A stretch of 64,000 nt of DNA from Mesorhizobium sp. J8 (GTDB lineage Bacteria > Pseudomonadota > Alphaproteobacteria > Rhizobiales > Rhizobiaceae). Every line of letters begins with the position of its first letter. The first letter of the stretch is position 1. The notes beneath the pieces are model-generated. The model searched no databases, had not been told where the DNA came from, and saw only the letters and a list, made by a program, of their open reading frames with translations. Shown here piece after piece: positions 45,713-62,940 of the stretch. The DNA is taken from assembly GCF_016591715.1 (NCBI RefSeq), contig NZ_AP024109.1:558001-622000 (forward strand), given 5' to 3'. A program made the position numbers and the translations under genes.

Positions 45713-45750
45713 TTCGCCGATGTGCCTGGCAAAGGCTGAGGGCACCATAG

Positions 45751-45780
45751 GCCCGGTCTCCGCAATGCGCGGAGCCGGGC
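45751..45780 (+). terminator. Stem-loop between binding-protein and ATPase genes
   Basis: GCCCGG-T-CTCCGC and GCGGAG-CCGGGC pair over 12 bp with one bulged T and a short loop, 38 nt after the binding-protein stop. No T run follows. As in the other import operons here, it can protect the upstream message or attenuate downstream reading. Confidence 0.6.
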
Positions 45781-45805
45781 GGGCGATCGGCGCGGGTGGT
45801 TAAGG

Positions 45806-46867
45806 ATGAACACGGCCGCGCGTCCGATAAAGCTTGCCTGCCGAAATGTCTGGAAGGTCTACGGCCGGCGCCCGGCCTATTACTTCGACTCGCGCGGCTA
45901 TATCATCGATCCCGATGCGCTGGCCGAGCGCCTGCGCGCCGAGGCGCATCTGCCGGCCGTGGTCGATGCCAGCTTCGAGGTGGCGACCGGCGAGATATTC
46001 GTCATCATGGGTCTGTCCGGCTCCGGCAAGTCGACCCTGGTGCGCTGCCTGTCGCGCCTAGTCGAGCCCAGCGCCGGCGAGATCCTGCTCGACGGCAGGA
46101 ACCTGCTCGCCGCCAGCGGCAAGGAGCTCATCGAGCTGCGCCGCCACGCCATGGGCATGGTGTTCCAGAATTTCGGCCTGCTGCCGCATCTGAACGTGCT
46201 GGGCAACGTCGCCTTCCCGCTGAAGATCCAGGGCAAGCCGGCGAAGGAGCGCGAGGCCCGCGCCCGCGAGATGATCGCGTTGGTCGGGCTTGAAGGGCGC
46301 GAGGCGTCCTTCCCGCACCAGCTTTCCGGCGGCCAGCAGCAGCGCGTCGGCATCGCCCGCTCGCTCGCGGTGGGGCCGGAGCTCTGGTTCCTCGACGAGC
46401 CGTTCTCGGCGCTCGATCCGCTGATCCGCAAGCAGATGCAGGATGAGTTCCTGCGCCTGCAGCGCATGCTGAAGAAGACCATCGTCTTCATCACCCACGA
46501 CATCGCGGAGGCCTTCCGCCTGGCCGACCGGCTGGCGATCATGCGGGCGGGCAAGATCGTGCAGATCGGCCGCCCCGCCGACATCGTGCTCAACCCGGCC
46601 GACGACTATGTCGCGCAGTTCACCGAGGACATGCCGCTGCTGCGCGTCATCACGGCCGGCGACATCGCCGCGCCCGCCAATGGCGCGGGGTTGCCGGAAC
46701 GAAGCGTCGCCGCCGACACCAGCCTCGAGGCCCTGATCCCGCAACTCGCCTCGGGTGTGACGGCCTTCACCGTTCCTGGCGCGGGCGATAGACCGCCGGC
46801 GGTGCTCGACGCCGGCGCCGTGCTCGCGGTGCTCGAACGCGAGCAGGCGCGGCGCAAGAGCTCATGA
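45806..46867 (+). CDS. Quaternary-amine ABC transporter ATPase (ProV/OpuAA type)
   Basis: A 353-residue ATPase. The N-terminal extension (KVYGRRPAYYF, then DSRGYIIDPDALAERL) before the P-loop resembles ProV. Walker A is GLSGSGKST at about residue 69, signature LSGGQQQRVGIARSLA, Walker B LWFLDEPFSALDPL. The C-terminal 90 residues (from about 260) are short and do not form an obvious complete CBS pair, unlike typical ProV, so osmotic gating may differ. It ends in a 4-nt overlap with the permease gene. Confidence 0.87.
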   Translation: MNTAARPIKLACRNVWKVYGRRPAYYFDSRGYIIDPDALAERLRAEAHLPAVVDASFEVATGEIFVIMGLSGSGKSTLVRCLSRLVEPSAGEILLDGRNLLAASGKELIELRRHAMGMVFQNFGLLPHLNVLGNVAFPLKIQGKPAKEREARAREMIALVGLEGREASFPHQLSGGQQQRVGIARSLAVGPELWFLDEPFSALDPLIRKQMQDEFLRLQRMLKKTIVFITHDIAEAFRLADRLAIMRAGKIVQIGRPADIVLNPADDYVAQFTEDMPLLRVITAGDIAAPANGAGLPERSVAADTSLEALIPQLASGVTAFTVPGAGDRPPAVLDAGAVLAVLEREQARRKSS

Positions 46868-48960
46868 TGGCACCGGCCACGGTATTTCGGCCCTCCTCGC
46901 GGCTCGTCATGGAACCGGCGCTTCTGCCTTGGTGCGTGCTGGCCGTGCTGACGGCGCTTTGCCTGCTTCTCAAAACCGAGCTTCCCTGGCTGATCAATTT
47001 CCCCAAGGAATGGACGCTGCCGCTGGCCACTTACATCAACGCGGCGACCGACATTCTCGTCGCCGTCATCCAGCGGGGTTTCCGGGCGCTGTCCGCCCTG
47101 CTCGATGCGCCGATGCGCGGCGCGCGGCTGGCGCTCGCCTGGCTGCCCTGGCCGGCGGTGATGCTGGCCGTCGCCGTCCTCGCGCTGAAGTCGAGCGGTG
47201 AGCGGCTGGCGGTCTTCGCGCTCGCCACGCTCGCCTATATCCTGCTCGCCGGCTACTGGCCGCAGAGCATGAACACGCTAGCGCTGGTGCTGCTGGCGGT
47301 GCCGATCTCCACCGTGCTCGGCTTCCTGCTTGGCGTTCTGGGCTACGCTCGCCCGCGCTGGCGTCCGGTGCTCAATGGCGCGCTTGACCTGATGCAGACC
47401 GTGCCGGCTTTCGCCTATCTCATTCCGCTCCTGCTCCTGTTCGGCTTCGGTCCGGTGGTCGGGTTGATCGCCTCGGCGATCTACGCGACGCCGCCGATGG
47501 TGCGCAACACCATGCTCGGGTTGGAGCGCGTGCCGGCGGCGATCAGCGAGGCCGGCCTGATGAGCGGCTGCACGCGCCGCCAGCAATTCTGGCAGGTCGA
47601 GGTGCCGACGGCGCTGCCGCAGCTTCTCGTCGGCTTCAACCAGACGACGATGGCGGCGCTGTCGATGGTGATCGTCGCCGCCATCATCGGCGGCTTCGAA
47701 GACATCGGCTGGGAGGTGCTCTCCTCGATGCGCAAGGCCGAATTCGGCCAGAGCATCCTCTCCGGCCTGGTTATCGCGCTGCTCGCCATCCTCATCGACC
47801 GCCTCACCATCGGCTTCGCCAAGGCGCCGGAGACCGGGCCGACGCCCGCCATGCGCTGGATGACGCCGCGCCGGCTGGCCCTGTCGCTGTCCGTCGCGCT
47901 GGCGCTCGCCATCGTCATCCGGCTGGCCGCGCCCGATGCGACGCTTCTGCCGGAAACCGGGCTGCGCATGCAGATGGGCGCCGTCAACCAATGGCTGCTG
48001 GGGCTCGTGCGCGACTATGCCTGGTTCTTCAACGGCGTGCGCAATGCGGTGCTCTACTGCCTGCTTCTGCCGCTGCGCGTCGGTATTTCCGGCTCGGCGA
48101 CGCCGGCGATGTGGGGCTTCTCGCTGCCGCCGTCCGTGCTGGTCGCTTATGTCGCCCTGGTGCTGGCCTTTGCCATCTTGGCGTTGCGCGGCTTCGGTTG
48201 GCGCGGGGCACTGGCGGTGCTGGCCGCCGGCTTTGTCTTCTATACCGGCTTTCTCGATCTGCCCTGGCCTGTCTTCATCCTTGCCGTCGCCTTGCTCGCC
48301 GGCCAGGTGGGCGGGCCGCGGCTCGGTTTTTTCGCGCTTGTCGGCTTCGGGCTGATACTGGTCAATGGCCTATGGCCTCAGCTGGTGCAGTCGCTCTATC
48401 TCTGCACGCTGGCGGTCCTGCTTTGCCTTCTGGTCGGCGGCGCGCTCGGAACATGGGCGGCGCATAACGATCGCGTCTCGCATATCCTGAAGCCGATCTG
48501 CGACGCGCTGCAGACGATGCCGCAATTCGTCTTCCTCATCCCGGCGCTCATGTTCTTCAAGGTTGGCGAGTTCACGGCGCTGATCGCCATCATGCTCTAC
48601 GCCATCGTGCCGCCGATCCGCTATGTCGAGCACGGGCTGCGGCATGTCCGCCCCGATGTCGTCGAGGCGGTCGAGCAGATGGGCGCGACGCCGCTGCAGA
48701 CCTTGCTGCAGGCCAAGCTGCCGCTCGCTCTGCCCGTCGTCATGCTCGGCCTCAACCAGACCATCATGGCGGCCCTGTCGATGCTGGCCATCGCCGCCCT
48801 TGTCGGCACGCGTGATCTTGGCCAGGCGGTCTATGTCGCGCTGGGCAAGGCCGATGCCGGCATGGGCCTGATCGCCGGCCTGTCGATCGCCTTCCTGGCG
48901 ATCCTTGCCGACCGGTTGATCCAGGCAGCCGTTGCGCGTTCGGCCGCTGCTTCACATTGA
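46864..48960 (+). CDS. Tandem-fused ProW-type ABC permease
   Basis: A 698-residue membrane protein made of two ProW-like permease domains in one chain. Each half ends with the same coupling-loop pattern: first SGCTRRQQFWQVEVPTALPQ, LLVGFNQTTMAALSMVI and GGFEDIGWEVL; second GATPLQTLLQAKLPLALPV, LGLNQTIMAALSMLAIAALV and GTRDLGQAVY. ProW normally acts as a homodimer, so the fusion supplies both halves of the channel in a fixed ratio. The ATG at 46864 overlaps the ATPase stop. The stop at 48960 directly abuts the convergent exoQ-like gene. Confidence 0.9.
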   Translation: MMAPATVFRPSSRLVMEPALLPWCVLAVLTALCLLLKTELPWLINFPKEWTLPLATYINAATDILVAVIQRGFRALSALLDAPMRGARLALAWLPWPAVMLAVAVLALKSSGERLAVFALATLAYILLAGYWPQSMNTLALVLLAVPISTVLGFLLGVLGYARPRWRPVLNGALDLMQTVPAFAYLIPLLLLFGFGPVVGLIASAIYATPPMVRNTMLGLERVPAAISEAGLMSGCTRRQQFWQVEVPTALPQLLVGFNQTTMAALSMVIVAAIIGGFEDIGWEVLSSMRKAEFGQSILSGLVIALLAILIDRLTIGFAKAPETGPTPAMRWMTPRRLALSLSVALALAIVIRLAAPDATLLPETGLRMQMGAVNQWLLGLVRDYAWFFNGVRNAVLYCLLLPLRVGISGSATPAMWGFSLPPSVLVAYVALVLAFAILALRGFGWRGALAVLAAGFVFYTGFLDLPWPVFILAVALLAGQVGGPRLGFFALVGFGLILVNGLWPQLVQSLYLCTLAVLLCLLVGGALGTWAAHNDRVSHILKPICDALQTMPQFVFLIPALMFFKVGEFTALIAIMLYAIVPPIRYVEHGLRHVRPDVVEAVEQMGATPLQTLLQAKLPLALPVVMLGLNQTIMAALSMLAIAALVGTRDLGQAVYVALGKADAGMGLIAGLSIAFLAILADRLIQAAVARSAAASH

Positions 48961-50244
48961 TCAGACAGGCGCCGGCACGCGCCCATTGGCAGGCCTCTCA
49001 TCCTCGGCTGGAATGGCCACCCTGCGGCGCCGGAACGCCGGCAAGGGGATCAGCGTGAACAGGCCGTAATAGACGATGAAGGACGCCATGAAGTAGGGGC
49101 CGAGCATCTCGACCTCGAAGAAGGAGCGGATCAGCATCAACCCGATCGCGCCGGCAAGCACCACCGAATCGGCGCTCCAATCGCCGAACACCACTTTCGA
49201 CACATGGCCGTAGAAAGCGCGCAGGATCACCAGCGCCAGCAGGGTGACGCCGATGAAGCCGATCTCGACCAGCGTCTCGACATAGGTGTTGTGGAAGTGG
49301 AAGCCGGAGCGGGTCGAGATGTAGAATTCCGCCCACAGCCGTTCCGGGTCGGCAAAGCCCTGCACCCAATAGGCGGCATAGCCATAGCCAAGCAGCGGAT
49401 GCTGCTGCGCCGCCTCCCAGCCCTGCTCCCACAGATAGGTGCGGCCGGTGAGCGTCGAATCCTTGCCGAAGATGCCGAGCACGACATCCAGCAAGCCGAG
49501 GTTGAGCGCCGCCGCGACGCTTGTCACCAGCGCGCCGGCGCCGACGATGAACAGCACGCGGCGATAGCGCAGCGACAAGACCTTGGTCATGGTGAGGAGC
49601 ATCACGACGCCGATCACCGCAGGCAGCGAGGCGACCGACGTCGCCGAATGGGCGATGGCGAGCATATAGACCGACAGAAGCATGATCGGCGCTGTCCAGA
49701 TGAAGCCCAGCCAGTTGCGCCGGTAGAAGGCCATGAACGCAAGGCAGAAGAAGATGCCGAGCGAAGAGAAGAAACCGATCTGGTTCTTGGAGCCGAAGGC
49801 GCCGACGAAATTGACCGTGCCGTCGAGCGTGTCGAGCGCGTAACCGCCGACTCCGAGTGAATAGAGCAGAACGAAAAAGATGCCGATCAGCGAGCCCACC
49901 ACCAGCGTGCGCACGCTGATGGTGCGCGCCGCGACATAGGCGCAGACGATGTGCGAGGCATATTGCACTCCCGCGCGCGCGCTGATGCCCGCCGCCTGGG
50001 ACCAGAACACCGAGAAGCAGATATAGGTGGCTAGCAGAATGGGCAGCCAGGCGCTGGAAAGCCTCCAGGTGAAGCGCCGGTAGTCGACGAAGAGCAGCGG
50101 CAGCCACACGGCATAATAGGCAAGGATCAGGATCTGGCCGAAATTGGGCGAATAGGCGAAGGCGATCATGGAGACCGCGACGGCGAGGGTGCCGTAGGTT
50201 TCGTTGCGATCGGGATCGATCAGGATGGATTTGGGAATCTTCAT
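48961..50244 (-). CDS. O-antigen ligase/EPS polymerase family membrane protein (ExoQ-like)
   Basis: A 427-residue protein with ten to twelve predicted spans and a Wzy_C-type periplasmic loop containing STLTGRTYLWEQGWEAAQQH, PLLGYGY and the signature GFHFHNTYVETLVEIGFIG. It probably polymerises undecaprenol-linked EPS repeat units. Neighbouring exoZ-, exoF- and exoY-like genes point to ExoQ. The start ATG at 50244 lies 18 nt after the acyltransferase gene, so it ends a leftward exo operon. Confidence 0.82.
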   Translation of the reverse strand: MKIPKSILIDPDRNETYGTLAVAVSMIAFAYSPNFGQILILAYYAVWLPLLFVDYRRFTWRLSSAWLPILLATYICFSVFWSQAAGISARAGVQYASHIVCAYVAARTISVRTLVVGSLIGIFFVLLYSLGVGGYALDTLDGTVNFVGAFGSKNQIGFFSSLGIFFCLAFMAFYRRNWLGFIWTAPIMLLSVYMLAIAHSATSVASLPAVIGVVMLLTMTKVLSLRYRRVLFIVGAGALVTSVAAALNLGLLDVVLGIFGKDSTLTGRTYLWEQGWEAAQQHPLLGYGYAAYWVQGFADPERLWAEFYISTRSGFHFHNTYVETLVEIGFIGVTLLALVILRAFYGHVSKVVFGDWSADSVVLAGAIGLMLIRSFFEVEMLGPYFMASFIVYYGLFTLIPLPAFRRRRVAIPAEDERPANGRVPAPV

Positions 50245-51473: not shown

Positions 51474-52778
51474 CTACTGGCTGGCCGTCGGCGCCAGCTT
51501 TACCTTGATCACGTCGCCCGGCAGGACGGGCGTGTCTTCCTTGGCCTCGACCTCGCTCGTCTTACCGTCGGCAACGCGCACCAGCGAGTAGAGCAGGGTC
51601 GGCTCCTGGTCGCCGGTCATGCTGGCCGCCGTCGCGGGGTCCGACGCCTGCGCGATCAGACCCTTCTGCATGCCGGCCTTCAACGTCGCCTCGTTCAGGT
51701 CGGCCTCGGTCTGCTGGCGGTTGGCGGTAAGGGTGGAGTTGAGCGAGTTCCTCGCGTCGATGGCGTCCTGTTCTGCCTTGCTGATTGACTGCTTGGCGGT
51801 GAGGATGGCCGTCTCATAGTCGAGGATCTTGCCCTGCAGGTCGGTGACCGACTGTTGCGAGGAAAGCAGCCGCGCATTGGCGACTAGGCCTTTCTGCGCC
51901 AGCGGACCGATGCTTTCGGCCTGTTTCTCGGCCAGGTCGACCTGTTTCTGCTGGTTGGTGATCTTCTTCTGCAACGATTCGATTTCGGACTGCAGGACGC
52001 CTTTCAGATCGTCGAGGGCATCGAGCTTCAGCTTCAGCGATTTCTGGTCGGAGACCAGGATCGCCATTTCGTCGGCGACGATGGGCGGCAGTCTCGGATC
52101 GCCCTCGATCTCCTTGGGGACCTCGAAACTCGTCTTCCCGGCGAGGTCGGCGTCGATTCTGGCTCGCTTGACGAGGAGGCGGATACGCTGGTCGTCATAG
52201 ATGTCATAGCTGCCCTTGGCGGTGACCAGATCCTTGCCGAGTTGGGGACCATAGTCGGCGTTGCGCCTTATGCCGCCGGCGATGCTGATTGCCTTGAGCA
52301 CGGTCAGATCGGGCACGAAGGGAAACTGGCCGGGATTCTGAACCTCGCCCGAAATGTAGAACGGTCGGAACTGCGCCATCTCGACCGAGGCTTCCGGCTT
52401 GTCGGGTAGCGCTAGCTTACGCTGCAGCGCGAGCCCGATCGCCGAAGCGATCTCCGCCGTCGTCTTGCCGGCGGCCTGCATGTCGCCGACGAACGGCACC
52501 GACAGCGTCCCGCCCGGGCCGACCGAATACTCGCCATTGATGGCCGACCAGTCGCGGAACGTGCCGTCGACCGTCTGCCATTCGGCGACGCGGATGTTGA
52601 GCTTGTCCAGGGGGCCAAGCTGATAATCGCCAGCGGCAGCCAATTGCGGCATGGCCAGCGACGCCGCAAGCAAGAAGCCCGCGACGCGGGCTGGTGTCCG
52701 GGATATGAGACTGCAGGCGAAAGACAGTCCGAAGAGGTCTTTTGTCAAATGAACGTTTCCGATCCGCTTTGGCCCCAT
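51474..52778 (-). CDS. Polysaccharide export protein, ExoF-like (Wza/poly-export family)
   Basis: A 434-residue protein with a signal peptide region (ARVAGFLLAASLAMPQLAAA, cleavage near AAAG). A polysaccharide-export domain follows (DYQLGPLDKLNIRVAEWQTV, YSVGPGGTLSVPFVGDMQAA), then an SLBB-like segment (YISGEVQNPGQFPFVPDLTV) and a long coiled coil at about 215-370. It should form the periplasmic/outer-membrane export channel with an exoP-type kinase. The start at 52778 avoids overlap with exoY. A TTG at about 52735 or a longer frame to 52862 is possible. Confidence 0.85.
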   Translation of the reverse strand: MGPKRIGNVHLTKDLFGLSFACSLISRTPARVAGFLLAASLAMPQLAAAGDYQLGPLDKLNIRVAEWQTVDGTFRDWSAINGEYSVGPGGTLSVPFVGDMQAAGKTTAEIASAIGLALQRKLALPDKPEASVEMAQFRPFYISGEVQNPGQFPFVPDLTVLKAISIAGGIRRNADYGPQLGKDLVTAKGSYDIYDDQRIRLLVKRARIDADLAGKTSFEVPKEIEGDPRLPPIVADEMAILVSDQKSLKLKLDALDDLKGVLQSEIESLQKKITNQQKQVDLAEKQAESIGPLAQKGLVANARLLSSQQSVTDLQGKILDYETAILTAKQSISKAEQDAIDARNSLNSTLTANRQQTEADLNEATLKAGMQKGLIAQASDPATAASMTGDQEPTLLYSLVRVADGKTSEVEAKEDTPVLPGDVIKVKLAPTASQ

Positions 52779-52837
52779 CCGCCCGATGAGATCACTTTCG
52801 GATGCCCGCCCCGCGATCGGCGGAGCAGGCCCGTCGG

Positions 52838-53515
52838 TCAATAGCTGCCGCGCGACATCCACACGGCAGGAACTGTCTTGAAGATGATGCGAATATCCTC
52901 GAACAGCGACCAGTTCTCGACATAGTGGCGGTCGAAGGCGACGCGCGTGTCGTAGGACACGTCATTGCGGCCGCTCACCTGCCACAGCCCGGTGAGACCC
53001 GGGCGCGACTTCAGGTAATAGACAGCGGCGCTGCCATAGATCTCCAATTCGTCGCGCACCACCGGGCGCGGGCCGACAAGGCTCATGTCGCCTTGCAGGA
53101 TATTGAGGATCTGCGGCAGCTCGTCGAGGCTGAGCTTGCGAAGCACCGCGCCGACGCGAGTGACGCGCGGATCGTTCTTCAGCTTGCGCGTTGCGATCCA
53201 TTCGGCGTTGGCTTCCGGATTGGCCGCCAGATAGGCGGCGAGCACGCGCTCGCCGTCCGGAACCATGGTGCGGAATTTGAGGCAGGAGAAAATCCTGCCG
53301 CCGCGGCCGATCCGCTTATGGCCATAAAAGATCGGACCGTTGTCCGAAAGCTTGACCAGCAGGGCGACCATCAGGAAGAGCGGGCTGAGCAAAATCAGCC
53401 CTGCCAGGGAACCGACGATATCGAAGCTGCGTTTGATTAAACCGCCGATGGGGGGTGGAAAATCAACGCCGGCCTGGGCAAAACCCGCATTAGCCGACTT
53501 GGCGACGTCCCTCAT
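52838..53515 (-). CDS. exoY: Undecaprenyl-phosphate sugar-1-phosphate transferase (ExoY-like)
   Basis: A 225-residue initiating glycosyltransferase. One hydrophobic segment ([20 protein letters not shown] at about 29-48) precedes the bacterial-sugar-transferase domain with [47 protein letters not shown] and [15 protein letters not shown]. It loads the first sugar-1-phosphate onto the lipid carrier and commits the cell to EPS synthesis. The ATG at 53515 faces the divergent exoX-like gene over a 606-nt regulatory gap, the arrangement of exoY/exoX in Sinorhizobium. Confidence 0.9.
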
Positions 53516-54121: not shown

Positions 54122-54394
54122 ATGTCTCTGCCAAAATTCATCATCGGCATGATGTTCGCGCTCGCGATCGTCATCGGCTGGTCATATTTCGACGGCGCAT
54201 CGGCGGGCACCATCCTCTTGCGCGCCATCGTTTGCGCCGTCATTATCCAGGCGGGCTATTTCCTTCTGGTCTTCGCCATGGTCGGCAGAGCCACGCCGAC
54301 ATCGGCGGACAAGGTCCGTGAATCCGACCGCGGCGCGATCCTGAACAAGGTCGCCGAAGGCGAAAAGCTAAGCGCCAGGCGCAGCCTCCACTGA
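54122..54394 (+). CDS. Small inner-membrane protein, ExoX/SyrA-type EPS production repressor candidate
   Basis: A 90-residue protein with two membrane spans (about 5-20, FIIGMMFALAIVIGWSYF, and 32-54, AIVCAVIIQAGYFLLVFAMV) and a charged cytoplasmic tail. Size, topology, the CAVIIQAGYFLLVF pattern and position divergent from exoY match the ExoX family, small proteins that lower EPS synthesis by acting on ExoY. The ATG at 54122 is chosen over upstream openings because the spans begin there. The 3' end overlaps the convergent ABC exporter gene by 27 nt. Confidence 0.65.
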   Translation: MSLPKFIIGMMFALAIVIGWSYFDGASAGTILLRAIVCAVIIQAGYFLLVFAMVGRATPTSADKVRESDRGAILNKVAEGEKLSARRSLH

Positions 54395-56269
54395 CCGTTC
54401 GACCGGCGCCGGGGCCGGTCCGGCCTCGACCGCGGTGTCGCGCTCGGCCTGTTCGCCCGACAGCATCCTGGCAAGACGGCTGCCGGCTTTTGCCTTCAGC
54501 CGCCGATATTGTCCGACCTCGACGATGCGCCCGTTCTCGATGGCCACGACCCAGTCGGCGAAGGCGATCATCGATGGCCGGTGCGCGATGGTCAAAATCG
54601 TCATCTGGCCGCGCAGCGACTCGATCGATTGGGCGATCAGCGATTGATTCTGCCAGTCGAGCGCGCTCGTCGCCTCGTCGAGGATGAGGAGCGAGGGCTT
54701 GCGCAGCAGCGCCCGCGCCAAAGCGATGCGCTGCCGCTCGCCGCCGGAGAGCCGCACACCGCGGTCGCCCACCACCGTCTCCAGCCGCAATGCCAGCCGC
54801 TCCACGAAATCGGCCGCATGGGCGTTGCGCAGCGCCGCCCAAAGCTCGTCGTCATTGGCCCCCGGCGCTGCAAGGCGCAGATTGGCGGCGATCGTGTCAT
54901 GCAGCAGGAACACGTCCTGCGGTACGTAGGCGACCTGATCGCGCCAGGCCCTGCGGTTCCGGGCGGTGATCTCCACGCCGTCGGCCAGGATCCTGCCGCT
55001 GGTTGGTTCGAGCAGGCCGAGCAGCATGTCGGCGATCGTGCTCTTGCCCGAGCCGGAAGGGCCGATCAGCGCCGTTACCTTGCCGGCAGGCAGGCCGAAG
55101 GTGATGTCGCTGACCACCGGGTGCCCGTCTCCTTCGCCATAGGCGAAGCAGATATCGCGGATGTTGAGGCCCGTCTCGAGCGAGAGTCTCGCGCCCTGTT
55201 CGGCCGCGCTTTCTTCCGGCTCGCGCTCGGCATCGAAACGGGCCTGGAGGCTCTGCATTGAAGCATAGGCCGGCAGGTTGATCAGCACCTGCTGGGTCTG
55301 GAGCTGCATATCCATGAAGCGCGGCGCGACGCGCATGAAAACCAGGAGCAGCACGACGATCTCGGCAAGCGACAGGTGGAAGCCGACCAGCGCGATATAG
55401 ATGAACAGGCTGAGCCCGATCACGCTCGTAACCTGGAACAGCGCGGTGCCCAGCGACGAGTTGCGGACGAAGGCGATGTTGTCGGACTTCATCCTGTCCA
55501 GCGTCGCGCCGAGCTCGGCAAAATAGCTTGCCTCGACGTTCAGGCTCTTGGCCACCTTGATGCCGCCGAGAAACTCGGAGACCGTGCGGTACTGGTCCTG
55601 GCGGTTGCCGGTCAGCGTCCGGCCATAGGCGCTGGCGCGTGCCCTGAACGGCTGCAAGGCGATCAGCAGCACCAGGCCGATGAAAATGGCAAAGCATGTC
55701 ATCACCGGCGAGATGAAGAGCGAGACCACGAGATAGCCGGTGAGAAGCAGCGTGGCCTGGGTGAGCATCAGCAGCGAGAAGGCCGCGACCTGTACCCGGT
55801 CGACATCGCCGTTCAGCGCATGGTCGAGGTCGGAGCTGCGGATGCGGGTGAACACGCCCCAGCGTGCCTTGCCGACGCTCTCGAACAGGTTCATGCGCAC
55901 GCGGTTGACGAAGTCGTAGAGCAGCCGCGCCATGTAGACCGACTTGAAGCGGTTGAAAACCGCTTGCAGCGTCACCAGCGCGACGAGCAGGGAAAGCACG
56001 GTGGCGAGCGACAGCGTTCCGCCGGGCACCAGCCAATGGAGAGCCTCCGGCACCCGAACCGCGTAATTCTGCTCGGCCTTGCCGATCAGGCGCAGCAGCG
56101 GAACGAGCAGCAGGATGGAGGCGCCTTCGGTGAGGCTTCCCAGGATCAGGAAGGCAAGCGCCGTCGCCGTGCGCCGCCCGCCGACATGCGCCATCATCGC
56201 GCCGAAGCCGGCGACATCCCGGAAGAACGACAGGCGAAGCTTCGAGGACCAGCCCATGCCTTGGCTCAC
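54368..56269 (-). CDS. ABC exporter of the lasso-peptide cluster (transmembrane plus ATPase)
   Basis: A 633-residue half-transporter with six spans at about 25-330 (GSLTEGASILLLVPLLRLIG, LSLLVALVTLQAVF, YIALVGFHLSLAEIVVLLLV) and a C-terminal ATPase: Walker A GPSGSGKSTIADML, signature LSGGERQRIALARALL and Walker B LLILDEATSALDW. The GTG at 56269 overlaps the kinase stop (GTGA), giving coupled translation and a better start than the ATG at 56257. Homodimeric exporters of this type carry mature lasso peptides out of the cell and give self-immunity. It is the last gene of the leftward cluster. Confidence 0.88.
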   Translation of the reverse strand: MSQGMGWSSKLRLSFFRDVAGFGAMMAHVGGRRTATALAFLILGSLTEGASILLLVPLLRLIGKAEQNYAVRVPEALHWLVPGGTLSLATVLSLLVALVTLQAVFNRFKSVYMARLLYDFVNRVRMNLFESVGKARWGVFTRIRSSDLDHALNGDVDRVQVAAFSLLMLTQATLLLTGYLVVSLFISPVMTCFAIFIGLVLLIALQPFRARASAYGRTLTGNRQDQYRTVSEFLGGIKVAKSLNVEASYFAELGATLDRMKSDNIAFVRNSSLGTALFQVTSVIGLSLFIYIALVGFHLSLAEIVVLLLVFMRVAPRFMDMQLQTQQVLINLPAYASMQSLQARFDAEREPEESAAEQGARLSLETGLNIRDICFAYGEGDGHPVVSDITFGLPAGKVTALIGPSGSGKSTIADMLLGLLEPTSGRILADGVEITARNRRAWRDQVAYVPQDVFLLHDTIAANLRLAAPGANDDELWAALRNAHAADFVERLALRLETVVGDRGVRLSGGERQRIALARALLRKPSLLILDEATSALDWQNQSLIAQSIESLRGQMTILTIAHRPSMIAFADWVVAIENGRIVEVGQYRRLKAKAGSRLARMLSGEQAERDTAVEAGPAPAPVERSVEAAPGA

Positions 56270-57246
56270 CTTGTCTCGGACGCCAGGTCGGTTTCGATCG
56301 CGGCGACCGCCTCGTCGATCCGGGCGAGCCCGGCCGGCACTTCGAGGCGGCTGAGGCCGACGCGTCCGGCGACCTGTGCGCATTGGCCGAGATGCACGGA
56401 GGCGGAATCGCCCGGCAGCGCCTGCCGGCCGAACCGCGTGATGTAGGAGAATTTGATGACCGCCGGCAGCGCGGCGGCCCCGGTCAGCGGCGAGATCGCC
56501 GCCCGCGCGCCGCGCTCGAGCACATAGAGGCGCGACACCGGCACTGCTTCGCCGGCAAACCCGTCGCGCAGCCGGTGCTGCGCCTTGTCGATTTGCGGAT
56601 GCACTTGCGGGCGTACCTCCGCTTGCTCGAGGCGAATGGCGCCGGCCGCATCCGCGGCGAGCTTGAGCTGCGGAAATCCGGGCAGGATCATCGGCCGCCC
56701 GGGATCGGATAAGTCCAGCGCCACGACGTCGTCGGTGAGCAGGCGGTGGCCGGCGCGGATCATCGCGCCCGCCGTCGTCGACTTGCCGGCGCCCTTGTCG
56801 CCCATGAAGATCACGCTCTTGCCGCCGACGGCGATGGCGCTGGCATGCAGGACGAGCAGCCCGCGCCGATGCAGGGCGAGCGCCATCACCGGCCCGAGCA
56901 GCGGAAAGGCAAGCAGCGGGTCGCCCACGCCTGGCGCTGGATCGACGTCGATCCGCTTGCCGTCGCTGATCATGAAGGTGCCGACCGCCTGCCAGGAAAG
57001 ATATTGGCGCGTGGACTCGAACCGGAACGCCGTGGCGCCCTGCGATGCGGCGTCGGGGAAGTCGACCGGCCCGACCGCGATCTCCAGGTCCGGCGTCGCC
57101 GGCGCCGCCGGTTCGAGTTCCGGCAGGGCCACTTCCGAACGGACGATCAGCCCGTAGGCCTTGTAGAAATGGCGGACCCGTCCGCCCGGCGCCGCCGTCT
57201 CGGTGGCGGGCCCGGGCCGCGCAAGGGACGCGATCGGAAGGTTCAT
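56266..57246 (-). CDS. HPr-kinase-like protein, candidate lasso-peptide Ser kinase
   Basis: A 326-residue protein. The C-terminal half has an HPr-kinase-like P-loop, GDKGAGKST at residues 149-157, preceded by HASAIAVGGKSVIF and followed by LLTDDVVALD (about 169-178), equivalent to the HprK metal/substrate loop. The N-terminal 120 residues resemble those of lasso-cluster kinases rather than true HprK. In paeninodin-type clusters such enzymes phosphorylate the C-terminal Ser of the precursor. The precursor here ends in Ser. It overlaps both neighbours by 4 nt (ATGA, GTGA), so it belongs to the cluster. Activity is not proven. Confidence 0.82.
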   Translation of the reverse strand: MNLPIASLARPGPATETAAPGGRVRHFYKAYGLIVRSEVALPELEPAAPATPDLEIAVGPVDFPDAASQGATAFRFESTRQYLSWQAVGTFMISDGKRIDVDPAPGVGDPLLAFPLLGPVMALALHRRGLLVLHASAIAVGGKSVIFMGDKGAGKSTTAGAMIRAGHRLLTDDVVALDLSDPGRPMILPGFPQLKLAADAAGAIRLEQAEVRPQVHPQIDKAQHRLRDGFAGEAVPVSRLYVLERGARAAISPLTGAAALPAVIKFSYITRFGRQALPGDSASVHLGQCAQVAGRVGLSRLEVPAGLARIDEAVAAIETDLASETR

Positions 57247-59156
57247 GCAGGGCTTCCTTGGACTTGCCGCAGCCACAATGACAGCGAAACCGAGCGCCAG
57301 ACATGCTGGACGTCGGGCAGCGTCGCCTGCTCGGGCCGGCTGAGCAGGCGCTCATAGACCGCGTTCACTTCAGGCAGGTTGACATAGGGCGCGATCCGCT
57401 CGCTGTCCGATATCAGCAGCCTGTCCAGAAGTTCGCGATGGTTGCCGAGCATGCCATTGACCAGATTGGCGGTGAAATCGATCTTGTCGCGCCGCCATTG
57501 CACCGCAGGCGGCAGAATGCCTTGCATGGCCCGGCGCAGCACATGGCGGCCGAAACCGTCCCTGAGCTTTTCCTCGCCGGGCAGCGCCAAGCAGAATTCG
57601 ACGAGGGGCTTGTCCCAGAACGGATAACGCGGCTCGACACCGAAATTGGCGGCGGCCTTATCAAGCACTTCGAAGGCGTGCGGGACCAGCCCGGTCGACA
57701 GAAGCCAGCGATGCGTCAGCGCTTCGCTGGCCGTGACGGCTGCGGGCATGTAGCCGCTGCGATGAAAGCGCTCGGCAAGATCGGTGCGCCTGGCAAGCTC
57801 CGGATTGACCAGGCCCGTCCAGGCGGCGCGCGCGGTTTGCGCCGGCCTGCGCCGCGCCTTGCCGACGACGCGTCTGGCCATCGACCTCACCCGGGCGATC
57901 CGCCAGGCCGGTCCGTAGATGGTCAGGAACTTGAAATAGAGCGAGAGCATGCCCTCGCCATAGGTATTGGCGGCGCTGCGCAGCTCGCGCCACAGCTCCA
58001 GCCACCTGCCGGCATTGGCGAGTTCATGAAGGTGTCCATGGCCCTGCGAGACGACCTCGTCGCCGCCGTGCCCGTCGAGAAGCACTTTGACGCCCTTTGC
58101 GCCGGCGGTGCGGTAAAGGTCGCGAGTCAGCGACAGGCCGGGCGCCAGGAACGTGCCTTCCTGCTCCTCCAGAATGCGATCGAATTCGGCGAAGGGCGCG
58201 TAATTGCCCACCGCAATCAGCGTGGCGTCGAGCGGATTGTCGGCGAGGACCGCATCGATGAACGGCTTCTCGTCCATCGGCGAGCCCTTGTCGAAGACCA
58301 GTGAGAAGGTCTTGAGCTTCGGATTGCGCTTCGCCGCCGCGCGAACACCGGCAACGCAAGCGATCGAGGAGGAATCGAGCCCGCCGCTCAGCATGGCGCC
58401 GACGGCCGGCGTGCCGCGCATGCGGTTCTCCACCGATTGCGCAAAGAGATGCCTGAATTCCTCGGCCGCGTCCGAGCGCGGCGGCCGTTGCGAAGGCTCG
58501 ATGTGCCAGTAGCGCCGCAGCGCCACCTGTCGGTCCGCCACCATCATGCTGTGCCGTGCCGGCAGGCGGAAGATCTCGGCATAGGGCGTAGCCTGGGGAT
58601 CGTCCGGCAGACCGGCGAGGAAGCCGGAAATCTGGTGCTCGCTGAGGCGCCTGCCGACGCCGTCGAGCGCCAGGATAGGCCCGATCTCCGAGGCGAACGC
58701 AAAACGCTTGCCGGTCGCATGATAGTAGAAAGGTTTGACGCCGAAATGGTCGCGCGCGCAAAACAGCGCCTGGCGTTCGCCATCCCATATCGCGAAAGCG
58801 AAATCGCCCTGCAGGTAGATCGGGCAGGCCTCGCCCCATTTGAGGTAGGCGCGCATGATGAGCGCCGCGTCGGCCATCGACCGGTCGCGCAGGCCGAGCC
58901 GCGCCAGAAGCTCGTCGCGATTGTCCAGCCGGCAGTCAGCGGTGATGGCGAGCTTGCCGCCGGCCATCGTCAGCGGGCCGTGGCCGTCCTCGCCGGTCGT
59001 ATCGAGCCAGGCGTGGCCGAGCGCCACGCTGCCCTCGCTCCACCAAGAACTGCCGTCGCGGGCGCGGTGGCGCATGCGCGAAAGCATCTCCTGGATATCG
59101 CCGGCCCCGGCGGGCCGGCCATTGTCGTCATGCACGATTCCGGCGACGCCGCTCAT
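57243..59156 (-). CDS. Lasso peptide macrolactam synthetase, asparagine-synthetase-like (C protein)
   Basis: A 637-residue asparagine-synthase-family protein with an N-terminal Ntn-like glutaminase domain (about 1-200) and a C-terminal ATP-pyrophosphatase domain with SGGLDSSSIA at 257-266, DGHGGDEVVSQGHGH and YPFWDKPLVEFCLALPG. The normal MCGI N terminus is replaced by MSGVAGI, so the Cys2 nucleophile is absent and glutamine hydrolysis is not expected. The enzyme would adenylate the core Asp side chain and close the ring on the Gly1 amine. It lies 3 nt after B2 and overlaps the kinase start by 4 nt. Confidence 0.88.
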   Translation of the reverse strand: MSGVAGIVHDDNGRPAGAGDIQEMLSRMRHRARDGSSWWSEGSVALGHAWLDTTGEDGHGPLTMAGGKLAITADCRLDNRDELLARLGLRDRSMADAALIMRAYLKWGEACPIYLQGDFAFAIWDGERQALFCARDHFGVKPFYYHATGKRFAFASEIGPILALDGVGRRLSEHQISGFLAGLPDDPQATPYAEIFRLPARHSMMVADRQVALRRYWHIEPSQRPPRSDAAEEFRHLFAQSVENRMRGTPAVGAMLSGGLDSSSIACVAGVRAAAKRNPKLKTFSLVFDKGSPMDEKPFIDAVLADNPLDATLIAVGNYAPFAEFDRILEEQEGTFLAPGLSLTRDLYRTAGAKGVKVLLDGHGGDEVVSQGHGHLHELANAGRWLELWRELRSAANTYGEGMLSLYFKFLTIYGPAWRIARVRSMARRVVGKARRRPAQTARAAWTGLVNPELARRTDLAERFHRSGYMPAAVTASEALTHRWLLSTGLVPHAFEVLDKAAANFGVEPRYPFWDKPLVEFCLALPGEEKLRDGFGRHVLRRAMQGILPPAVQWRRDKIDFTANLVNGMLGNHRELLDRLLISDSERIAPYVNLPEVNAVYERLLSRPEQATLPDVQHVWRSVSLSLWLRQVQGSPA

Positions 59157-59159
59157 TGC

Positions 59160-59576
59160 TCACGACCCATGGTCGACCAGATGGGCAAAGCCGTTGATCG
59201 AACCGCCGAGCACGATGTGGTTGCCGCTCATCAGCCACGCATGCGCCTTGAGCGTGCTGCCGGTGCCTTTCTCGATGCCGATGCTGATCTTCGAGGCATT
59301 GCCCTGGCGGGCGAGCAGATATTGCCCGGCCAGCGCCTGGGTGAGGCACGTGGCGCCCGGCACGAGCCGCGCCGCTGCGGCGACGCCCCAGGCGACACGC
59401 CGCAGATCGGCGACGCTGGCGTCGCGCCTGGCATCCAGCCGCGTGACCGCGCCGCGGACACGGTTGTAGGAGGACAGCGTCAGCGCGAGCCGCACTGCGC
59501 TCACCACCACCAGGCAGCGCGCCAGGAACAGCATCTCCCGGCCGCTCAGCGAGCGGAGCCTAGACCAGTTCCTCAC
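59160..59576 (-). CDS. Lasso peptide leader peptidase, transglutaminase-like (B2 protein)
   Basis: A 138-residue protein with the B2 core: GATCLTQALAGQYLLARQGN carrying the catalytic Cys, and LKAHAWLMSGNHIVLGG carrying the catalytic His. The third acidic residue is less clear. B2 cleaves the leader from the precursor after delivery by B1. The GTG at 59576 is preferred because GAGG lies about 9 nt upstream. A TTG at 59591 is the alternative. Either start overlaps the B1 stop, giving a 17- or 32-nt overlap. Length is normal for split B2 proteins. Confidence 0.87.
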   Translation of the reverse strand: MRNWSRLRSLSGREMLFLARCLVVVSAVRLALTLSSYNRVRGAVTRLDARRDASVADLRRVAWGVAAAARLVPGATCLTQALAGQYLLARQGNASKISIGIEKGTGSTLKAHAWLMSGNHIVLGGSINGFAHLVDHGS

Positions 59577-59859
59577 GATGGAGCCTCGCAAGCCCTGCTT
59601 CGCTCAGCCCCCTGAGCAAACCCTCGACGTCCGCCTTGCAGCGCTCCGCATCGACATTGTAGCGCGCAAGCACGGCGCTGCGGATATCGAGGATCGATCG
59701 CGGCTCCTGGATCTGCTCCCAGATGAAGGCGCCGACGCCGTTCAGGCTGTAATAGACGTTGGATTTGAGATGGAGCAGCGCCAGTCCGGGGCCGAATTCA
59801 CACGCGACCGCCTCGCCGGTCGCAACCACGCGGTCATGGTCCGAGGGGTTCCAGTCCAT
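59560..59859 (-). CDS. Lasso leader-recognition protein, PqqD-like (B1 protein)
   Basis: A 99-residue PqqD-family protein: GPGLALLHLKSNVYYSLNGVGAFIWEQ followed by ILDIRSAVLARYNVDAERCKADVEGLLRGLSEAGL, the usual three-strand plus helix fold that binds RiPP leaders. In lasso systems it grips the YxxP leader motif and presents the peptide to B2 and C. It lies 161 nt after the precursor gene, behind a stem-loop, and overlaps B2. The start ATG at 59859 (MDWNPSDHD) is standard. Confidence 0.9.
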   Translation of the reverse strand: MDWNPSDHDRVVATGEAVACEFGPGLALLHLKSNVYYSLNGVGAFIWEQIQEPRSILDIRSAVLARYNVDAERCKADVEGLLRGLSEAGLARLHREELV

Positions 59860-59933
59860 GCTAAAACCTCGTTGCTGGCCCCGCGCCCTTGGGCCTTTCG
59901 CCGTGGATCGGTTGCCGACGATCCTCGGCAGGA

Positions 59934-59959
59934 AGCCGGGGGACAGAAGCCCCCCGGCT
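59934..59959 (-). terminator. Stem-loop between lasso precursor and biosynthetic genes
   Basis: AGCCGGGGG (59934-59942) and CCCCCGGCT (59951-59959) form a perfect 9-bp GC-rich stem with an 8-nt loop in the 161-nt gap between the precursor stop and the B1 start. No T run follows on the coding strand. It probably allows excess precursor mRNA relative to the enzyme genes. Confidence 0.6.
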
Positions 59960-60020
59960 CACCTGGTGGAGAGCATCCGGAGCCCCAACTTAGACACCCG
60001 GTTGCCTGTGAGCTTTAGCT

Positions 60021-60173
60021 TTAGGAGAAGGTCAGCTCGCCGACCGGCGTGTGCGCGGGGAAGCTCGCGTCAAGCGCCGTCGTGCCGGCACCGCCCTGCG
60101 TGATCGTTTCAATCGAACCGTGAACCGTCAGGCTGGGGGTTTCGTACTCATGCTTTTCAACATTCTGTTCCAT
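60021..60173 (-). CDS. Lasso peptide precursor (A protein), predicted leader 26 aa and core 24 aa
   Basis: A 50-residue peptide beginning MEQNVEKHEYETPSLTVHGS, with GGAGAG at a normal distance before the ATG at 60173. The leader has the Y10-x-x-P13-x-L15-x3-G19 recognition motif and Thr at position -2 of the predicted cut (ETITQ then GGAGTTALD). The core starts with Gly1 and has Asp9, allowing a nine-residue ring. The tail of 15 residues has bulky Phe12, His15 and Phe23 as possible plugs and ends ELTFS. The calculated monoisotopic mass of the cyclised core is about 2285.1 Da. The C-terminal Ser is a possible kinase target. Confidence 0.85.
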   Translation of the reverse strand: MEQNVEKHEYETPSLTVHGSIETITQGGAGTTALDASFPAHTPVGELTFS

Positions 60174-60674
60174 TTTACTCTCCAACTGAGGACTGGAAGC
60201 GGCTGCAGAATGCCGCCAGCATATCGCTATGCTGCAACGCAATTGCTGCACGGCACCATTCATGAGTCAAGCGTGATTTACCAACCGTTAATCAATTCTC
60301 GGTTGCGCTCGCCTTCCTTGGCGGTCAAGCCGTGAGCGCCGTTAGGGTAAACCCCGACCGCCCTCGGATTCAACCGCAGGTCTCTGCCGTTTAGGTAAGC
60401 TTTTGATTTATTTGTGGTAATTTTCACGGCATGCAACCCGTTTCGCGCATGCGAAGAAATTGCTGCAAAAAATCTTCACTATCTGGCCTCGGCCGGATAT
60501 CGCCTGTGTTGTCTTCAAAAGTGATTGAACACGTGACGATTCTAACTCGTAGGTTGCAGCGATGAACCAGCTCGAACGGGGCTTTAAAGCAGCTGCGTTA
60601 ATTTTCCCGATGCTTTTCTTCGCAGTTGCGGTATAAATCGCTCGGGCGGCATTTTGCGGAGAACGACATCGGGC
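60174..60674. other. 501-nt non-coding divergent region upstream of the lasso precursor
   Basis: The region between the precursor and the rightward nucleotidyltransferase is AT-richer than the genes around it and must hold both promoters. An imperfect palindrome TATCTGGCC-TC-GGCCGGATA (60480-60499, one mismatch per arm) is the clearest candidate operator. No coding frame with protein-like features and no RNA gene were recognised. Confidence 0.5.
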
Positions 60675-61907
60675 ATGGCGGTGCAGGATGGCTCCTATGA
60701 AAGGCTGCGCGCCGCCGGCTGCGCCAACGAAGTCGCCTATGTGCAGGCCTGCCTGAGGCTGTTTTTCACGCCCCGAGCCAAGATCACGGATGGCCCAGCC
60801 GATCTGCCCGCACTGACGGTCTCGGCGGCCCCGATTTCGGCGGCCCCAGTCTCGGCGGCCAACGTCGCCGACATCGCCAGGCTGAACAAGGTCGCCGTGT
60901 TCCTGCTCAAGGCGCTCAAGCATGCGCCCGCGGACGCTGTGCCCGCGGAGTTGGCTGGCTGGCTCGATGGCTACCGTCGGCGCACGATGTCGATGAACGC
61001 CGCCTGCATCGGCGATTCGATAGCCATCGATCGCGCGCTGCGCGAGAGCGGGGTCGATTTCGTCTTCCTCAAGGGGCCGCTCCAGCAGCATCTGCTCTAT
61101 GGCGACCATTTCATGAAGCCTTCTGGCGATGTCGACATACTGGTTTCGCCGGCGCGCTTCGGGCAAGCGCGCGAGGCGTTGCGGGCGATTGGCTACGAGG
61201 TTGCCGGCAAATCCCGCTCCGTCTGGTGGATTCGCTTCCTCGGCGAGCAGCACATGGTTCGCGAAGACGGCGCGAGGGCCTCGACGGTCGACCTCCATCA
61301 TCGGCTGCAGCAGCCTGGCTCGCCGAGCCCACGCGACATCGACGGCTTCCTGCGCCGCAAGCGCGAAGTCGAGGTGGCCGGCGCCGCCATGCCGGTGATC
61401 TCGGCCGCCGACACGCTGCTATTGTCCTCGATCAGCGTCGCCAAGGCCTTTTTCAACCGCGAGCCCTGTGCCGGCTATGTCTGCGACATCAGGGCCAGCG
61501 CCGGCCGCCTGAACGAAGCCGAGCAGCAGAGGGTGCTCGATCACGCCGCCGGACAGGGCCTGGCGGACACGCTGCTCCTCGGCCTGCGCGCGGCCGATGT
61601 GCTGCTCGGCGCCACAGGCACGCTGCTTTCGGAGCGCGCCACCCGCATTCTGGCCCGCATCGACAACGCCGATCTCTTCCACATGGTCATGGCGCCGTGG
61701 CTCGCGTCATTGCGCTGGCCGCAGCGCCGCCATGTGCTTTGGGAGCTCTGCGGCCGCGAGCCGGTCCGTTACCTGGCTGAAGCCGGTTGGGCCGCCTCCG
61801 CCGATCTCAGCCGGCGCATCTTCGAGCGGCCGGCCACGATCGGGCCGGCGCAGGGCGAAATGATCAAAATCATGGGCGGGGCTGCCAATCATGCAAGCGA
61901 AAGGTGA
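60675..61907 (+). CDS. Nucleotidyltransferase-family protein (NTP_transf_5 type), linked to lasso cluster
   Basis: A 410-residue protein with the nucleotidyltransferase core VDFVFLKGPLQQHLLYGDHF and SGDVDILVSPARFGQAREALRAIGYE, in which DVDILV supplies the metal-binding acidic pair. HHRL and a helical C-terminal region follow. Such proteins recur in lasso and other RiPP or polysaccharide clusters, with tailoring roles suggested but rarely proven. An Ala-rich segment with repeated SAAP (about 50-63) precedes the catalytic domain. The ATG at 60675 is preferred; a TTG at 60654 would add seven residues. It is followed by a glycosyltransferase 4 nt after its stop. Confidence 0.75.
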   Translation: MAVQDGSYERLRAAGCANEVAYVQACLRLFFTPRAKITDGPADLPALTVSAAPISAAPVSAANVADIARLNKVAVFLLKALKHAPADAVPAELAGWLDGYRRRTMSMNAACIGDSIAIDRALRESGVDFVFLKGPLQQHLLYGDHFMKPSGDVDILVSPARFGQAREALRAIGYEVAGKSRSVWWIRFLGEQHMVREDGARASTVDLHHRLQQPGSPSPRDIDGFLRRKREVEVAGAAMPVISAADTLLLSSISVAKAFFNREPCAGYVCDIRASAGRLNEAEQQRVLDHAAGQGLADTLLLGLRAADVLLGATGTLLSERATRILARIDNADLFHMVMAPWLASLRWPQRRHVLWELCGREPVRYLAEAGWAASADLSRRIFERPATIGPAQGEMIKIMGGAANHASER

Positions 61908-61911
61908 GCCC

Positions 61912-62940
61912 ATGCCCGTGACGACGCCCATCACCAATCCAGGGGTCTGCGTCATCATCGCCGCGCGCAATGCGGCGCGCACCATTCCCGGCGCCATCGC
62001 TTCGGCGCTGCGCGAGGCGGAAGTCGCCGAAGTCATCGTGGTCGACGACGCCTCCACCGACGACACCCGGGAAGTGGCCCTGGCCGCCGATGACGGCAGC
62101 GGCCGGCTTGCCGTCATCCGCTTCGACGTCAATCGCGGCCCTTCCGCCGCGCGCAACGCGGCCATCCAAGCCTCCAGATCGCCCTTCATCAGCATTCTTG
62201 ATGCCGACGATTTCTTCCTCGAGGGCCGCTTTCGCCGGCTTTTCGCCAGCGCCGATTGGGATTTCGCCGCCGACAACATCATGCTGATCCGAGACGATGC
62301 GGCGACGGACCTCGCCAAGATCACCGCGCCGCCTTTCGAAGCCGAGCCGGAATTTCTCGATTTCGAGCGCTTCATCGACGGCAACATCTCGCGCCGCCGC
62401 GTGCGGCGCGGCGAGTTGGGCTTCCTCAAGCCGGTGATCAGCCGGACTTTCCTCGACCGGCATGGGCTGAGCTACGACGAGAACCTCAGGCTTGGCGAAG
62501 ATTACGAACTCTACGCGCGCGCCGTCGCCTGCGGGGCACGCTTCAAAGTCATCAAGTCCTGCGGCTATGGCGCGATCGTGCGCGCCGATTCGCTGAGCGG
62601 CCGCCACAGAACGCAGGATTTGAAGCGCCTTGCCGATGCCGATCTGGCGCTGCTCCAGATCGACAGCCTTCCGGAGCGCTCGAAGGCAGCGTTGCGGCGC
62701 CATGAGCGCCATGTCCGCGACAAATACCGGCTGCGCAATTTCCTCGATGTGAAAGCCGAGCGCGGGCTGGCGTCGGCTGCGGCTTACGCCTTCGCCAGCC
62801 AGTCGAATCTGATCCCGATCGTGCGCGGCGTCGCCACCGACAAGCTCGACGCGCTGTTCCGCCGCACCGGGATTGTTGCGCGGCAGCAAATACCGCCGAT
62901 GCGCTTCCTGATGGCGGCAACCAGCGCCGCGAACGAGTGA
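61912..62940 (+). CDS. Family-2 glycosyltransferase (ExoU/ExoW-like)
   Basis: A 342-residue inverting GT2 enzyme. GVCVIIAARNAARTIPGAIA at the N terminus, EVIVVDDASTDDT, the DxD-type SILDADDFFLEG near residue 95 and the catalytic-base region LRLGEDYELYARAVA near residue 190 define the GT-A fold. No membrane spans are present. It probably transfers a sugar to the lipid-linked EPS repeat unit. AAAGGTGAG precedes the ATG at 61912. Its position next to lasso genes leaves open whether the acceptor is EPS or peptide. Confidence 0.85.
   Translation: MPVTTPITNPGVCVIIAARNAARTIPGAIASALREAEVAEVIVVDDASTDDTREVALAADDGSGRLAVIRFDVNRGPSAARNAAIQASRSPFISILDADDFFLEGRFRRLFASADWDFAADNIMLIRDDAATDLAKITAPPFEAEPEFLDFERFIDGNISRRRVRRGELGFLKPVISRTFLDRHGLSYDENLRLGEDYELYARAVACGARFKVIKSCGYGAIVRADSLSGRHRTQDLKRLADADLALLQIDSLPERSKAALRRHERHVRDKYRLRNFLDVKAERGLASAAAYAFASQSNLIPIVRGVATDKLDALFRRTGIVARQQIPPMRFLMAATSAANE

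Follow-up and report, generated by a model that had tools for sequence, protein, structure and literature searches.

Why does a complete set of lasso-peptide genes, with a kinase gene among them, lie inside a rhizobial exopolysaccharide (EPS) locus? The question is raised by a stretch of 64,000 nucleotides (nt) from Mesorhizobium sp. J8 (NZ_AP024109.1, positions 558,001 to 622,000; hereafter the window), in which a preliminary description had placed a six-gene lasso cluster with an HPr-kinase-like gene. Open reading frames and profile searches confirm that this operon is real: it spans 60173-54368 on the minus strand in the order A-B1-B2-C-K-D, with all six leftward genes at the proposed place and on the proposed strand. 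Every part of the proposed cluster in an exo locus stood; what had been overlooked is a probable seventh gene, N, which diverges from A. We consider it likely that the seven genes constitute a phospho-lasso cassette within the Mesorhizobium EPS locus and that the exported peptide acts together with the EPS. The genes of the cassette, with the two parts of the precursor, are:

60021..60173, minus strand: A, lasso precursor of 50 residues (NF033528, 33.2 bits, cut-off 33; NF033521, 23.9 bits, cut-off 19), with the Shine-Dalgarno sequence GGAGAG ahead of its ATG
60173-60096, minus strand: leader of A, 26 residues, MEQNVEKHEYETPSLTVHGSIETITQ, ending in Gln26
60095-60024, minus strand: core of A, 24 residues, GGAGTTALDASFPAHTPVGELTFS, with a predicted G1-D9 ring and C-terminal Ser24
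59560..59859, minus strand: B1, PqqD-like recognition element (RRE) of the kind found with ribosomally synthesised and post-translationally modified peptides (PF05402, 5.6e-19; solved TbiB1 matched at 1.5e-08)
59160..59591, minus strand: B2, transglutaminase-like leader peptidase, start codon uncertain (NF033537, 64.5 bits, cut-off 33)
57243..59156, minus strand: C, asparagine-synthetase-like lasso macrolactam cyclase (NF033535, 783.8 bits, cut-off 525)
56266..57246, minus strand: K, HPr-kinase-like lasso kinase (Hpr_kinase_C match; H134, K155, D172, D173; PEPCK/HPrK fold)
54368..56269, minus strand: D, ATP-binding cassette (ABC) exporter with a GTG start (ABC_tran, 9.6e-35; ABC_membrane, 5.5e-12)
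60654..61907, plus strand: N, nucleotidyltransferase (PF14907, 1.7e-35)

The RRE (B1), the leader peptidase (B2) and the macrolactam synthetase (C) of a lasso cluster were each recognised by profile matches. These bear out the family motifs described earlier for the precursor and the PqqD, transglutaminase-like and asparagine-synthetase-like proteins, and A, B2 and C exceed the NCBIfam lasso cut-offs. The structure matched by B1, TbiB1, is a solved lasso RRE, and residues C82, H117, H137 and D140 of B2, together with C26, are kept in at least 99% of 100 homologues. The 4-nt overlaps said to join cyclase, kinase and exporter are present at both C/K and K/D. An overlap of B1 and B2 exists (32 nt) if B2 starts at TTG 59591, a start that is itself uncertain.

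Lasso precursors are marked by a YxxPxL...G leader, Thr at position -2 and a core with Gly1 and Asp or Glu at positions 7-9. Precursor A carries YETPSLTVHG in its leader, Thr25, Gly1 and Asp9. A longer form beginning at the in-frame ATG 60263 was rejected, since an in-frame extension of at least 20 codons is absent from 81 of 103 loci and GGAGAG precedes 60173. The core is 24 residues long and ends in TFS in all 103 loci of the genus (one with an ambiguous base), and the NCBI annotation names the precursor 'lasso peptide' in several Mesorhizobium. Homologous precursors were retrieved as the best 120 of 154 matches, with a search profile that itself favours such C-terminal ends; among the matches listed, a C-terminal Ser, as in paeninodin-type clusters, was found in 116 of 121 precursors (two of the other five are partial records), and the 116 have D9 in 115 cases and Thr at -2 in all. 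The mass near 2285.1 Da given by the preliminary description was recomputed as 2285.096 for the G1-D9 lasso of the 24-residue core, and as 2365.063 with HPO3. The proposed form heavier by 79.97 Da fits because the core ends in Ser, the target of such kinases.

Both kinase motifs named earlier, GDKGAGKST and LLTDDVVALD, are present in K. Around the P-loop, K matches Hpr_kinase_C (PF07475) at 32.7 bits, just below the Pfam cut-off of 33.3, and its 31.0 of 240 bits against TIGR00679 place it outside HPr kinase/phosphorylase proper. Its predicted structure (predicted local distance difference test, 88.5) falls in the PEPCK/HPrK fold, and H134, K155, D172 and D173 are invariant across 20 aligned sequences. 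These residues fit the His-Lys-Asp-Asp motif reported for lasso kinases (PMC9266682), the assignment of positions being our own; the same report describes the precursor's C-terminal Ser as the residue that such kinases phosphorylate. A parallel with EPS cassettes bearing HprK-related kinase A and XrtA was set aside: among the papers listed, none contains the term 'HprK-related kinase', and the profile matches lie below threshold (TIGR04352, 42.1 of 200 bits; TIGR03108, 193 of 817).

The cassette is bordered on both sides by EPS genes:

48961..50244, minus strand: Wzy/exoQ-like polymerase (PF04932, 3.5e-22)
51474..52862, minus strand: exoF-like polysaccharide export protein (PF02563, Poly_export, 1.8e-14)
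52838..53515, minus strand: exoY-like sugar transferase (PF02397, Bac_transf, 2.6e-64)
54122..54394, plus strand: ExoX-like repressor, left neighbour of the cassette, its 3' end overlapping that of D (NF052519 ExoX, 2.7e-10, 40.4 bits, below the cut-off of 140)
61891..62940, plus strand: GT2 glycosyltransferase at the exoU position (PF00535, 1.4e-26; published gene order)

By Pfam and NCBIfam, the left flank comprises the ExoX-like gene, exoY, exoF, an acyltransferase and the Wzy-type polymerase, and the right flank continues after the GT2 gene with ExoK (NF052392, above cut-off), UDP-glucose dehydrogenase, a GMC oxidoreductase, glycosyltransferases and a Wzx-type flippase. The gene order reported for M. 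loti is exoQFYXUKTLAMONP (PMC8227245), and the flanking genes and their order in the window are the same. Given this order, the GT2 gene was named exoU and the cassette occupies the exoX-exoU interval of a Wzy-type exo locus; the available text of that source mentions no lasso cassette between the two genes.

How constant this arrangement is was determined with the kinase: of the 146 species genomes sampled from the genus, 103 have an orthologue of K (at least 65% identity), the window included. Genes A, B1, B2, C, K and D were matched in all 102 other loci, a few of them via partial pieces. N and the GT2 gene were matched in 101 of the 102 (L096 starts near a contig start), as were exoY and exoF (L047 reaches a contig end). 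Throughout these 103 loci, two of them on contigs cut short, the cassette adjoins exoY, the GT2 gene or both, and the carriers include M. plurifarium, M. ciceri, M. huakuii, M. loti and M. amorphae. Since the block is kept in the window and 102 other species genomes, its integrity is more than chance. The partial BLAST pieces concern C in L101 and L123, D in L127 and B2 in L128, and breakage, splitting or misassembly may affect a few copies.

The 43 genomes without an orthologue of K fall into 25 with a match to exoF (at least 61% identity) and 18 without. Twenty of the 25 were inspected at the site itself. In all 20, the GT2 gene and exoY lie close together, N to D are gone except for fragments, and a homologue of ExoX is present. 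Short cassette-like remnants were seen at 11 of them. L207 and L209 retain pieces of both ends; the other nine have a single piece of 57-151 nt from the 3' end of D beside exoX, which could be conserved for another reason. On a tree of the GT2 gene, exoY and exoF, presence of the cassette requires at least 5 changes, against a mean of 18.9 after shuffling, and its patchiness reads as repeated loss because the cassette is present in outgroups. Distances between cassette enzymes and between EPS flanks correlate at r=0.91 (n=103), a value reached in none of 500 permutations. The cassette is best read as vertically inherited, fixed at one site and, where missing, lost as one block.

Outside the genus, the genes A to D together with N stand beside exoY and exoF in two loci of the same family (L165, L167) and in two from another family within the order (L169, L170). 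Identities are 38-68%, and each of these loci except L167 has a match to the GT2 gene. L168 has matches to A to D, N and the GT2 gene, and none to exoY or exoF. In this locus (genome G415), the core predicted from the A match at 8413 would have 24 residues and start with Gln (QNQSGTFLD...), an unusual first residue at the ring-forming position of a lasso peptide. B1, B2, C, K, D and N were also found in named loci of Sphingobium, Brevundimonas (two), Porphyrobacter, Aurantiacibacter, Rhizorhabdus and Sphingomonas; N is either divergent or placed behind D, and two of these loci lack a match to A. A pattern search did not find the precursor in L315, L317 and L321; tblastn gives an A-like match in L317. 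Pfam detects Wzz/BY-kinase, Wzy, GH16, BBP2 or glycosyltransferase genes near the Brevundimonas, Porphyrobacter, Aurantiacibacter and Rhizorhabdus loci, and an acyltransferase and ManC near that of Sphingobium.

With one query set, EPS genes were found close to 10 of the 11 cassette loci that lie outside the Mesorhizobium clade, compared with 1 of 15 other lasso or HPr-kinase loci. The queries derive partly from the test loci; without self-hits, all ten still match a query from another locus, L316 and L320 then via GH16 only. Here L305 is from the genome of L165, and L242 from that of L170. The count left out L169 (which has exoY and exoF), L308, whose contig measures 4.5 kb, and L166, where N alone is present at the start of a contig. 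The 15 controls come from 12 genomes and measure 12.5-19.9 kb, against 17.3-21.0 kb for the cassette loci, and the Pfam scan covered the cassette side.

Several published systems resemble the cassette in part. In agreement with the earlier statement that kinase-bearing clusters are known from paeninodin and some proteobacteria (SyanK and PadeK; PMC9266682, PMC8498205), polyphosphorylation is reported for the SyanA/SyanK cluster of Sphingobium yanoikuyae (PMC8498205, PMC9266682), which by its description shares with the present one a kinase gene alongside the lasso genes and a C-terminal Ser; unlike here, neither a nucleotidyltransferase nor an EPS neighbourhood is mentioned in the available descriptions. 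Paeninodin (Paenibacillus, PadeK) and pseudomycoidin (Bacillus, PsmK/PsmN) likewise combine an HPr-like kinase bearing His-Lys-Asp-Asp with a C-terminal Ser (PMC9266682), and the nucleotidyltransferase gene of the pseudomycoidin cluster has been tied to hexoses on the phosphate (PMC9266682); in contrast to those clusters, N is divergent in Mesorhizobium and the precursors end in TFS, and N is likened to PsmN by description only. Paeninodin-like clusters of Bacilli and the LPP family were reported in 2026 from capsule loci, with lasso genes, kinase and NTP transferase lying, as here, inside polysaccharide loci (PMC13381572). According to that source, 344 of 9173 genomes of Bacilli carry paeninodins, for which at least 102 events of gain and loss are counted, LPPs are in 80 genomes with 61 events, and the biological role of paeninodin-type lasso peptides is unknown (PMC13381572). 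The Mesorhizobium cassette differs from Bacilli paeninodins in its presence in most species genomes sampled, its single site and its co-divergence with EPS genes. Thus kinase-bearing proteobacterial, nucleotidyltransferase-bearing Bacillus and capsule-embedded Bacilli clusters are already known, and set against them the Mesorhizobium cassette is a new, unusually stable variant: alphaproteobacterial, seven-gene, EPS-embedded, stably inherited and lost as a unit. Among the papers listed from the openly licensed literature, the longer lists judged by title and start of abstract, none was seen to describe it, in line with the earlier remark that no such cluster is known from a rhizobial exo locus.

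What the peptide does is weighed first against the proposal that it is an ordinary antibacterial lasso peptide, a bacteriocin aimed at close relatives, with an exo interval that tolerates extra genes and EPS that is irrelevant. Several characterised lasso peptides are antibacterial, the presence of the cassette is patchy on the EPS tree, and the authors of the Bacilli study take the gain and loss history of paeninodins as typical of biological conflicts (PMC13381572). Selection argues the other way. Ratios of nonsynonymous to synonymous substitution rates (dN/dS) were calculated where all ten genes are complete, which holds for 64 of the 103 genomes; each set comprised 150 sampled pairs, and sequences that contain stops or X, or are covered to less than 90%, were dropped. 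The leader gives 0.02-0.04, the core 0.19-0.22, the genes B1, B2, C, K, D and N give 0.15-0.24, and exoY gives 0.08-0.10; as dS ranges up to 0.9, these ratios are rough. The core appears to be under ordinary purifying selection, with its length, D9 and TFS fixed, and lacks the diversification that would be expected of a bacteriocin. A similar neighbourhood also recurs in several genera and another family. We thus regard the bacteriocin explanation as unlikely. The idea that the peptide is more conserved than its enzymes was abandoned: by identity over the 50 residues this is mostly so, and dN/dS sets apart the leader only.

A second alternative concerns N, which might act in EPS synthesis (e.g. 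in sugar-phosphate transfer) and merely share an intergenic region with A. It vanishes with the lasso genes at the 20 empty sites, where the GT2 gene remains, and accompanies them in seven loci with differing flanks (L310, L311, L315-L317, L320 and L321). N belongs with the lasso genes and the GT2 gene with EPS; N is probably the seventh gene of the cassette, and a role in EPS synthesis proper is quite improbable. Its PF14907 match supplies the nucleotidyltransferase gene of a pseudomycoidin-type cluster. Fold comparison ranks the nucleotidyltransferases MenT and ANT(2'') on top and FKRP lower, so that FKRP-like chemistry was dropped and only the nucleotidyltransferase fold is claimed; by sequence, N matched no solved chain at E 1.

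That the peptide is a symbiosis factor made for the legume host is very improbable and does not explain the distribution of the cassette: although a plant receptor is reported to sense the EPS of the M. loti exo locus (PMC8227245) and the cassette is in 77 of 101 nodA+ and 26 of 45 nodA- genomes (n=146, p=0.031, relatedness ignored), this weak excess reverses among the 128 genomes with an exo locus (77/101 against 26/27, p=0.026, relatedness ignored), 5 independent pairs taken from the tree show no trend, 26 of the 45 nodA-less genomes carry the cassette, and its relatives in Brevundimonas, Sphingobium and Aurantiacibacter are not known as legume symbionts.

We accordingly favour a phospho-lasso peptide that acts with EPS. 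B1 would bind the conserved leader, K would phosphorylate Ser24 of the linear precursor, B2 would cleave after leader Gln26 and C would close the Gly1-Asp9 ring around the tail. N may then modify the Ser phosphate with a group of nucleotidyl or sugar type, and D would export the product; at the surface or within the matrix, the peptide would act together with the EPS that the neighbouring exo genes produce. The proposal draws on gene content, catalytic residues, the C-terminal Ser, synteny, co-divergence with EPS genes and block loss, as read from the sequences. Leader binding, phosphorylation, cleavage, closure and export are modelled on characterised relatives; the exact step of N and the EPS-related role are suggested by context alone. 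A further elaboration, in which N links a sugar from the EPS pathway to the phosphate on Ser24 and the lasso caps, anchors or tags a minor EPS fraction and so affects its length, retention or recognition, is a long shot; if true, lasso peptides would be structural or regulatory parts of bacterial polysaccharides and not diffusible antibiotics.

Several observations weigh against an EPS-linked phospho-lasso peptide. The cassette is known here from genes alone, K lies below curated HPr-kinase cut-offs, and the dN/dS of the core resembles that of the enzymes, the leader alone being extreme. The EPS repeat of M. loti R7A is described as an O-acetylated octasaccharide, and the available text mentions neither peptide nor phosphate (PMC8227245). 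The exo locus is retained without an orthologue of K in 25 genomes, and EPS synthesis is thus seemingly independent of the cassette. L310 gave no EPS match in the query-set count and has only the acyltransferase and ManC by Pfam. The query-set search found no EPS genes near the loci of G541, G606 and G754 (L171-L174). Nor is the cassette common class-wide: in a sample of 385 genomes, K was matched at 1e-40 in six, the window's own included, and only L241 among the loci of the other five (L235-L241) has one EPS gene in the query-set count. With these five among the controls, lasso clusters with such kinases are not all EPS-linked. On the other side stands the embedding itself, which is that of the capsule-locus lasso clusters of Bacilli: the cassette sits inside a polysaccharide locus, at one fixed site, in most sampled Mesorhizobium species. 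Natural genomes with an exo locus and no K orthologue (25, of which 20 have an inspected empty site) make its function testable by deletion and comparison. If the EPS link holds, phospho-lasso peptides are part of EPS biology and not only of antibiotic warfare.

Two elements may bear on expression of the operon:

60174..60303, minus strand: conserved block of about 130 nt ahead of A, likely promoter region (position conservation, 103 loci)
59930..59964, minus strand: RNA hairpin in the A-B1 gap (minimum free energy -29.1, z -3.98 for 59930-59972)

Within the conserved block, a TTGACT-like element lies about 95 nt before the ATG of A; TTGACTCATG, with at most 2 mismatches, was found 94-98 nt upstream of the ATG in 102 of the 103 loci and at 107 in the remaining one. 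The best 40-nt window in the A-B1 gaps of the 103 loci has a median of -24.1, against -17.2 in segments of C. The hairpin is possibly an attenuator that would favour the precursor over the enzymes. In five loci compared, its sequence varies and a stable hairpin persists.

Further observations concern the surroundings and more distant clusters. Left of the exo genes, 44774-48960 of the window encodes an OpuAC-type glycine betaine binding protein, an ABC ATPase and a permease. Four Mesorhizobium genomes without the EPS cassette (G087, G040, G143 and G037; L137-L140) carry a different cluster, whose genes resemble C (31-32% identity), B1, D and the kinase. L241 (G1130) has genes that resemble C, D and N (25-32% identity) and, within 18 kb, matches of exoY and Wzy type; it could be a very distant EPS-linked case.

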